Translations under genes and position numbers: made by a program
From: Dehalococcoidia bacterium
GTDB lineage: Bacteria; Chloroflexota; Dehalococcoidia; UBA2979
Length of the DNA: 32,754 nucleotides
Assembly: GCA_004296805.1 (NCBI GenBank)
Contig: SCVR01000202.1
Coordinates: forward strand, 1 to 32,754
Direction: 5' to 3'
Notes under the pieces: generated by a model
Told to the model about the DNA's origin: nothing
Databases searched by the model: none
The model's input: the letters and a program-made list of their open reading frames with translations, nothing else
In this document: positions 1,344 to 32,754 of the stretch, piece by piece
Layout of the letters: each line of letters starts with the position of its first letter
How positions within the stretch are numbered: position 1 is the stretch's first letter

Positions 1344-1349
1344 TACGAT
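1344..1349 (+). promoter_or_regulatory. Putative -10 element (TACGAT) for the valS leader
   Basis: TACGAT-CCAAAG-GTG; 6-nt spacing to the leader peptide start codon. Confidence 0.4.
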
Positions 1350-1355
1350 CCAAAG

Positions 1356-1421
1356 GTGAACACGAAGCACGAGCCCGCCCTCGTACCGTCCGTAGCCCTC
1401 GTACTCGTAGTAGTACGGTAG
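1356..1421 (+). CDS. Valine-rich leader peptide MNTKHEPALVPSVALVLVVVR (valS attenuator leader)
   Basis: GTG start, 21 codons plus TAG. Six Val residues, all GTA, ending GTA-GTA-GTA-CGG-TAG, in a high-GC genome. Followed directly by hairpins and valS. Confidence 0.75.
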   Translation: MNTKHEPALVPSVALVLVVVR

Positions 1422-1458
1422 CGGCAGCGCGGCCCGGATCGGGCCCGTCCGCTGCCGC
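1421..1458 (+). promoter_or_regulatory. Leader RNA hairpin between leader peptide and terminator
   Basis: GCGGCAGC (1421-1428) pairs with GCTGCCGC (1451-1458); inner GGCCCG-GAT-CGGGCC (1431-1445). The 5' arm begins inside the leader stop codon. Confidence 0.6.
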
Positions 1459-1460
1459 TC

Positions 1461-1490
1461 AGCCCCGCCGGTGCGGGGCTTCTTGTTTCT
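1461..1490 (+). terminator. Intrinsic terminator / attenuator upstream of valS
   Basis: AGCCCCGC-CGGT-GCGGGGCT perfect 8-bp stem (1461-1480) followed by TCTTGTTTCT, 28 nt before the valS ATG. Confidence 0.75.
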
Positions 1491-1517
1491 CAGCCGCCTG
1501 AACCCTGTGAGGCCTCG

Positions 1518-30944: not shown

Positions 30945-31347
30945 GGGTGACGGGTTACAGGTGGATGTTTCCGCTTGCGCGTGGACAGCCGCTCATAACC
31001 CAGCCGCAGACTAATCAGACTATCCGACCCGACCCAGCAAGTGCCACCGGATCCGGCTCGCCGCCCTGCCGAGGACGGCAACTCCCGGCCAGACTAGAAC
31101 ATGCGTCCGCATCATGTCAAACGGATGTTCTGTCTGACTAACTGGGGTGTGTGCCTCGCGCTCTCACTCCCGGGGCTCAACCAGCACGCTTCGGGGCCGC
31201 AACGGAACCGCGAGATCGGGCGGAGGCATGTTGCAAGTCCTCAAGCGCTCCAACCGTAGTGTCACTGCCACAAACCAGAACGAAGTGAACAGGCGTGTCC
31301 GCACGTCGAGAGGATTGTGGCGTGAATACGACACTCCGAGGGACGCG

Positions 31348-32754
31348 ATGAAACGTCCTCTAGCATTGGTAATGGGCGCCCTGTGCGCGGCGATCATGAT
31401 GGGCACGGCTTCCGCCCAGACCGCGGGGGTAACCATCACCGTCCCGGCCGGGCCTGCCGGCACCATTCAGGCATTGGTGTTGCAGGCTCCGTGCGGCGCG
31501 GCTGGCACCGTCTCCCCGACGGCCACTACCACCCTGACGCTGCCTTCAACATGTGCGACGCCCGGTGCGGTCGTCACGTTTGCGAGTACCGGAGTGGCGC
31601 TGGCCTCGACGGTGATCGTCCCGCTGAGCGGCACGGGCACGCTCGTCATCGGTAGCCTCGAACCCGCGAACCCCGTCTCGATCGTGATCCCTGCGGTGCC
31701 GAGCGGCGCTGGCACGGTCAGCGCGATCGTCGGCGGCCGCACCTGTGCGACGGCGACGGTCTCGTCGACCGCCACCACCTCGATGTCACTCCCGGCGACG
31801 TGTGTGACTGCAGGCGCAACGATCTCATTCACGACTCCGGGCGGCGCCCTGGTCTCCACCTTGACGGTCCCCCTGACCGGTGGCGCCACGCTGACCTTGC
31901 CGTCGCTCGCGGCGGTGACCCCGGTCACCATCACCCTGCCCACGGGTAACGGCATACTGGCCGCGAACGTAAACGGGCAGGCCTGTGGCGCGACCACGCT
32001 TGGCGCGGCCGTCACGACCCTGACCTTACCCTCAACCTGCGCGACGGCGAACGGCTCGCTGACGTTCATCAACGCCGCCGGCCAGCAACTGGCCACGGTC
32101 CTTGCGATCCCGGCCAGCGGTGGCGCTGCGCTGAGCATCGCCAACCTCGATGTCGCGGTCGTCCGGGTGGTGCTGCCGAGTGCCCCCGCCGGTTCGATCT
32201 CGATCATGAGCGGCAACACGGTGTGTGGCACCGGGACGGTTTCGACCGCCACCACCACGACCGTGACGCTGTCATCATCCTGCAGCGTGCCAGGCCTCCC
32301 GCTCACATTCGTCGGCGGTAGCAACGTGTTGATCGCCTCGACCCTCACGGTACCGGGCACGATCACCACATCAAACGGCACCCTCGCCCTCGCGAGTCTG
32401 GCCGCCCTGAACCCGCTGAACGTGCAGGTGCCCGCGGGCACAGGCACGCTCAACATCTTCGTCGGTGGGAAGCAGTGCATGACCTCGGCTCTGGTCTCCA
32501 CGGGCACCACAGTCGTGACCCTGCCGGTGACCTGCGCCCTGGCGGGCCAGCTCATCACCTTCACCATCAACGGCACGCCTGTCGTGCCGACGCTGACGGT
32601 TCCGGCTTCGGGCACGGGCACGCTGGTGCTTGCCAGCCTGCAGTTGGTCGCCCCGACTCCCGCCAAGACGGGTAACGCCGGGATCGAGGGCAACGGCAGT
32701 GCCTCGGGCCTCATGCTCGCTGGCCTGCTGGCCGTCGCGCTGGGAGATCGGAAG
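31348..32754 (+). CDS. Secreted repetitive surface protein, five ~80-aa two-cysteine repeats plus C-terminal TG-type anchor; truncated at the window edge
   Basis: Manual translation stays open for 469 codons: signal peptide MKRPLALVMGALCAAIMMGTASA|QTAG, repeats with 'LPSTC'/'LPATC'-type motifs, then VAPTPAKTGNAGIEGNGSASGLMLAGLLAVALG. Missing from the ORF track because there is no stop in the window. Confidence 0.85.
   Translation, partial: MKRPLALVMGALCAAIMMGTASAQTAGVTITVPAGPAGTIQALVLQAPCGAAGTVSPTATTTLTLPSTCATPGAVVTFASTGVALASTVIVPLSGTGTLVIGSLEPANPVSIVIPAVPSGAGTVSAIVGGRTCATATVSSTATTSMSLPATCVTAGATISFTTPGGALVSTLTVPLTGGATLTLPSLAAVTPVTITLPTGNGILAANVNGQACGATTLGAAVTTLTLPSTCATANGSLTFINAAGQQLATVLAIPASGGAALSIANLDVAVVRVVLPSAPAGSISIMSGNTVCGTGTVSTATTTTVTLSSSCSVPGLPLTFVGGSNVLIASTLTVPGTITTSNGTLALASLAALNPLNVQVPAGTGTLNIFVGGKQCMTSALVSTGTTVVTLPVTCALAGQLITFTINGTPVVPTLTVPASGTGTLVLASLQLVAPTPAKTGNAGIEGNGSASGLMLAGLLAVALGDRK
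32745..32754 (+). other. Probable residual Illumina adapter at the contig end
   Basis: The terminal 10 nt AGATCGGAAG equal the first 10 nt of the TruSeq adapter AGATCGGAAGAGC. Confidence 0.8.

Follow-up and report, generated by a model that had tools for sequence, protein, structure and literature searches.

The gene for valyl-tRNA synthetase (ValRS) in the Dehalococcoidia bacterium of assembly GCA_004296805.1 is preceded by a very short reading frame rich in valine codons and by two hairpins, which raises the question of whether, and by what route, the supply of charged Val-tRNA sets the expression of this enzyme. T-box leaders are the usual regulators of valS in Firmicutes, and the leaders of amino acid operons (trp, his, ilv) and of Escherichia coli pheST comprise an ORF with cognate codons, hairpins and an intrinsic terminator. 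An earlier reading of the window, i.e., the complete stretch of 32,754 nucleotides analyzed here (contig SCVR01000202.1), recognized upstream of valS the layout of ribosome-mediated attenuation; this original prediction is supported by the conservation of the element across 12 genera and by the presence of sister modules with the expected codons upstream of leuS and ilvB. The valS element is interpreted as a cis-acting, translation-dependent attenuator of valS (probability about 0.82), and ribosome-mediated, Val-tRNA-sensing control of this gene is well supported by sequence comparison.

The features of the locus are listed in Table 1. Direct reading bears out the predicted GTG-started ORF of 21 codons with six Val codons, all GTA, and both the 8-bp hairpin with its T-rich tail and the start of valS were also placed correctly. 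The encoded protein scores 1101 bits against NF004349 (valine--tRNA ligase, cut-off 704) and 1015 bits against TIGR00422 (cut-off 612). The long hairpin predicted after the ORF (hairpin 1, hp1) is present, and its limits, formerly given as 1421–1458, are revised to 1420–1459. A single terminator-like site occurs in the interval 1200–1600, that of Table 1, compared with a mean of 0.0 in shuffled sequences. No Rfam family matched the window. At its far end (31147–32754) lies a long ORF with repeated Ala/Thr/Val-rich segments that runs off the window and looks like a secreted repeat protein.

Table 1. Features of the valS leader region in the window (nucleotide positions) and the ilvB leader found elsewhere in the same genome.
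Feature	Position	Strand	Description and basis
-10 box TACGAT	1344..1349	+	Leader start codon 6 nt downstream
valS leader ORF	1356..1421	+	GTG start, 21 codons, MNTKHEPALVPSVALVLVVVR*, TAG at 1419-1421; direct reading
Regulatory codons, six GTA	1383, 1392, 1401, 1407, 1410, 1413 (span 1383..1415)	+	Triple run 1407-1415
Hairpin 1 (hp1)	1420..1459	+	Outer stem AGCGGCAGCG/CGCTGCCGCT, inner stem GGCCCG/CGGGCC
Intrinsic terminator	1461..1490	+	8-bp stem 1461-1480 (AGCCCCGC-CGGT-GCGGGGCT), T-rich tail TCTTGTTTCT 1481-1490
Shine-Dalgarno-like GAGG of valS	1509..1512	+	Direct reading
valS, valyl-tRNA synthetase, 896 aa	1518..4208	+	NCBIfam NF004349 and TIGR00422
ilvB leader	G000:C237:2334-2403 (L330)		Hairpin module and second hairpin; 19 other loci L331-L349

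The choice of valine codon in the leader is far from that of ordinary genes. GTA fills leader codons 10, 13, 16, 18, 19, and 20, that is, every internal Val codon of the peptide, and accounts for 20 of the 584 Val codons (3.4%) in the genes of the window, a usage under which six GTA in six would arise with p ~1.6e-9. The 28 leaders that could be read in the family contain 111 Val codons (102 GTA, 6 GTC, 2 GTG, and 1 GTT); under the codon usage of the window this gives p ~1e-137, a value that overstates independence since the leaders are related. GTAGTAGTA has six matches in the 2.6-Mb genome, including the valS leader; on inspection none of the other five resembles a valine leader, and most are antisense to Tyr runs.

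According to the wobble rules GTA is readable by the UAC isoacceptor only, hence the leader probably senses Val-tRNA(UAC). The sensing of one specific isoacceptor, as originally proposed, fits the rarity of GTA and the tRNA genes recovered: tRNA-Val(GAC) is present in the MAG of the window, and tRNA-Val(UAC) in nine relatives (G003, G004, G009, G023, G024, G026, G027, G032, and G040), two of which belong to the same genus. The UAC gene was not found among the 29 tRNAs recovered from the MAG itself, which is 89% complete, and tRNA-Val(CAC) was found in one relative (G041). In these searches for tRNA-Val(UAC), DNA searching was the more effective method, as pattern searching missed most genes.

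The element is conserved throughout much of the family to which the organism belongs, a Dehalococcoidia-related group of Chloroflexota represented by 44 genomes of 17 genera, in 43 of which ValRS was located (among named genomes, a Dehalococcoidia MAG has the closest ValRS, at 69% identity). Counterparts of the leader in frame were read in 28 genomes, including that of the window, and a 29th (G009) is split between contigs; the order leader, hairpin, terminator and valS thus occurs in 29 genomes. This conservation and the rare-codon bias rule out chance or artefact as the origin of the leader. The peptides of the relatives (e.g., MHTPVVVVPGGG, VSDCDVVVTSGG, MRQHATVVVVVT, and VNLEVVR) have the Val run as their only common part, and that of G038 is degenerate, with a single Val codon. 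A covariance model of the valS leader matched 28 genomes of 12 genera, all within the family, and none outside it in a class sample of 393 genomes; in a phylum sample of 400 genomes, which overlaps the former and was searched with stricter filters that may have lost weak matches, only the genome of the window matched. The model is specific to the valS locus except for one weak match in G021, regarded as spurious, that falls on a coding/terminator site. The conservation of the ORF and hairpins in related genomes, proposed earlier as a check, therefore extends to the ORF, the GTA bias, hp1, and the terminator in 12 genera.

No Val-run leader is found upstream of valS in three AT-rich genera (g2, g10, and g12; nine genomes, G005, G006, G024-G027, and G029-G031, loci L164-L170, L173, and L174), which suggests that it was lost there through genome reduction or AT drift. 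G028 is ambiguous, and in a few genomes valS lies at a contig end. No Val-run leader was seen by eye at the valS genes inspected from more distant Dehalococcoidia and Chloroflexi; one of these, in a more distant member of the Chloroflexota (L017), is preceded by a T-box. In a more distant Dehalococcoidia genome (L014), a small ORF of the HicB-like antitoxin type (MIREYTAVIEKHGGWFAAYVEELPGVNTQG...) lies upstream of valS.

Folded one sequence at a time, all 28 leaders form hp1 (32–52 nt, 13–21 bp, -23 to -37 kcal/mol), which starts 0–7 nt downstream of the last GTA and ends 0–5 nt upstream of the intrinsic terminator present between ORF and valS in each of them. The end of the stop codon varies among leaders, lying 6, 15, 21, or 27 nt downstream of the last GTA, so that the position of hp1 is tied to the regulatory codons rather than to the stop codon. 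Genera differ in the inner helix (GGCCCG/CGGGCC, AGCGC/GCGCT, CCCCTC/GAGGGG, GCCTCGA/TCGAGGC) and pairing is kept throughout, which points to selection for structure. hp1 is therefore a conserved RNA structure with an inner stem that covaries between genera, positioned where the location of a ribosome can affect folding. RNAalifold on a MAFFT alignment of the leaders returned only 7 pairs and zero double changes because the registers differ between genera, and the pairs were read instead from individual folds. Exchanging the halves of hp1 between genera is mildly informative only (-32.0 kcal/mol for cognate versus -26.0 for swapped halves), since GC-rich arms pair with anything. Folded over its full length, the leader of the window pairs the ORF with the terminator; this fold was judged specific to the window, as leaders elsewhere can have as few as 7 codons and the ORF is variable in its 5' part.

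The leader is probably translated from a leaderless mRNA. In 25 of 28 genomes, a TAnnAT box stands 6–7 nt ahead of the leader start codon; RNA synthesis initiated at a typical distance from this box would start on that codon or very close to it. A -35 element resembling TTGACC (at least 5 of 6 matches) at a spacing of 17–18 nt accompanies the box in 14 of the 28 genomes and is weak in the genus of the window.

The same arrangement, with other codons, is found upstream of two more branched-chain genes, leuS and ilvB, where regulatory codons are followed by ACC-TAG and a GGCGGC hairpin (peptides ending ...L[VAL]LT* and ...LVLVLT*, respectively). In the family of the window, the leuS leader ORF ends CTC-NNN-CTT-ACC-TAG and the hairpin (GGCGGC...GTCGCC) begins 5 nt past CTT, a codon that represents 2.8% of Leu codons in the genes of the window. 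This leader was read in 20 of 23 genomes examined (upstream regions L280-L299 and L243-L245), with a start codon assigned in 19 of the 20, and its stem shows 5 pairs with double changes as against 1.8 in shuffles; no U-tract terminator was seen in the leuS leaders. In most members of the family a model of the leuS element also matches at another locus, and all 20 such loci retrieved precede a gene that starts like acetolactate synthase (ilvB), one of which was identified by profile (NF005860, TIGR00118) from a partial protein scoring under the whole-length cut-off. The ilvB leader (19 read) typically ends GTA-CTC-GTA-CTT-ACC-TAG; a T-rich tail follows the second hairpin in 9 of the 19, terminators being less uniform there. 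It is retained in an AT-rich genus devoid of the valS leader (L345). Codon identity thus follows the gene: a GTA run at valS, CTC-N-CTT at leuS, and GTA-CTC-GTA-CTT at ilvB. This match of codons to genes (Val, Leu, and both) is regarded as the strongest evidence for function, and the valS leader is real and conserved and very probably functions as a valine-sensing attenuator, one of a branched-chain set in this family. In the genus of the window, ileS has a T-box-like leader with a terminator (GGGTGGTACCGCGGG; L239-L242; Rfam E-values of 3e-4 to 0.015, under the gathering score); T-boxes have been reported for ileS and trp genes in Dehalococcoides (PMC2494555).

In the attenuator proposed here, the leader ORF would be translated from a leaderless message. 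With Val-tRNA(UAC) charged, the ribosome would finish and leave, hp1 and the terminator would fold, and transcription would halt before valS; with charged Val-tRNA(UAC) scarce, the ribosome would stall on the GTA run beside hp1, RNA polymerase would pass the terminator, and more ValRS would be produced. The stalled ribosome might defeat the terminator by masking the 5' arm of hp1, or its position might act in a different way. Equilibrium folding was performed at several ribosome edges, with mononucleotide shuffling of the part upstream of the terminator as a control. When hp1 is free, the terminator is favored by ~13 kcal/mol. Covering the first 12–15 nt downstream of the last GTA reduces this advantage to about 4–5 kcal/mol, since the 3' arms of hp1 and of the terminator can then pair with each other. 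Shuffled upstream sequence gives an equal loss (mean z 0.05; 11 of 28 leaders below the shuffled median), so that selection for an antiterminator pairing is not visible. Folding for mutually exclusive terminator and antiterminator structures, a check suggested with the original prediction, thus gives a competing pairing that is not stronger than in shuffles, and a base-paired antiterminator under selection is unsupported by either approach. Either a weak classical switch acts kinetically, or a ribosome beside hp1 acts on the polymerase in some other manner; these are two narrower versions of the attenuator explanation.

The second of these, in which ribosome position works without a dedicated antiterminator, by way of RNA polymerase pausing, coupling, or Rho access, and hp1 is the effector shared by valS, leuS, and ilvB, is a tentative proposal that falls short of even odds. 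It agrees with the nearly fixed spacing between codons and hp1 as the stop codon shifts, and with a codon-to-hairpin geometry common to all three genes; the leuS leader, having this geometry and no U-tract, weakly favors it. Retention of the valS terminator in every readable leader speaks against it, as it suggests that the terminator is used. A classical switch of the trp type, in which stalling would hide the 5' arm of hp1 under the ribosome and leave its 3' arm free to form an antiterminator with the 3' arm of the terminator, is possible and somewhat doubtful: the C-rich 3' arm of hp1 can indeed pair with the G-rich 3' arm of the terminator, and covering the 5' arm cuts the terminator advantage from ~13 to ~4 kcal/mol (below 2 in 5 of 28 genomes), but the shuffles lose as much, the terminator remains the favored fold in most genomes, and the 5' arm would equally be covered by a ribosome that has reached the stop codon. 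A bolder proposal, considered unlikely, takes the three elements as lineage-specific ribosome-position sensors (leaderless ORF, rare codon, and GGCGGC hairpin) that unite valS, leuS, and ilvB in one branched-chain regulon lacking a base-paired antiterminator, the hairpin and the abutting stalled ribosome acting on RNA polymerase or Rho.

That the ORF is a separate small-peptide gene, leaderless, equipped with a promoter-like box and a terminator of its own and without a role in valS regulation, is very improbable: wherever readable the leader lies directly upstream of valS, the peptide is unconserved outside the Val run, and the codons match the downstream gene at three loci. Least credible of all is T-box-like control, in which uncharged tRNA-Val would bind the RNA at GUA without translation, for although T-boxes are usual at valS in Firmicutes, one precedes the distant valS of L017, and the ileS leader in the genus is T-box-like, neither an Rfam match in the window nor a T-box in the sampled valS leaders was found, and the GTA codons belong to the reading frame of an ORF whose start codon and distance from the promoter are conserved. 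The Firmicutes T-boxes likewise sense Val-tRNA charging and control valS, but do so by direct tRNA binding.

The attenuator favored here shares with the pheST, trp, his, and ilv leaders an ORF with cognate codons followed by hairpins and an intrinsic terminator, ahead of cognate synthetase or biosynthetic genes; it differs in gene and phylum, in being probably leaderless, in the absence of an identifiable antiterminator, and in that the regulatory codons are located just before the first stem, not inside it. Several leader-peptide systems have been described for synthetase genes. Streptomyces leuS and trpS, similar as synthetase leader peptides in high-GC bacteria and different in codons and sequence, were reported as attenuators with an antiterminator hairpin drawn, in a paper that cites E. 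coli pheST as a leader attenuator and leaves valS unmentioned (PMC1262725). The uORFC-8-2 element before cysS in Rhodobacterales combines a uORF carrying cognate codons in tandem with two stems and a terminator, and resembles the valS leader in that no antiterminator is described (PMC8632094); unlike the valS leader, it occurs in alphaproteobacteria and carries its Cys codons inside the first stem. Attenuators with leader peptides are known or predicted for hisS/hisZ of bacilli; according to a 2010 survey, such systems had been known only from Proteobacteria and Actinobacteria until a Firmicutes case was added there (PMC2965389). Closest in idea to the ilvB module are the ilvB-II, ilvB-OMG, and Leptospira ilvB motifs, in which uORFs with many branched-chain codons (plus Thr in ilvB-OMG, and with Val runs in Leptospira) precede ilvB and not valS (PMC10272879). 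The sampled valS, leuS, and ilvB leaders gave no Rfam match at E <= 1 other than one chance CRISPR hit, in a database that may not include ilvB-OMG or ilvB-II. The original prediction knew of no earlier account of leader-peptide control of valS, and none was found in the literature searched, in which subscription journals are thinly covered, so novelty is not proven.

One module with swapped codons thus appears before valS, leuS, and ilvB in a single uncultured family of Chloroflexota in which ileS has a T-box-like leader. These loci constitute a natural codon-swap series that may help to understand transcriptional control by a ribosome stalled on a message that is probably leaderless and has no evident antiterminator.
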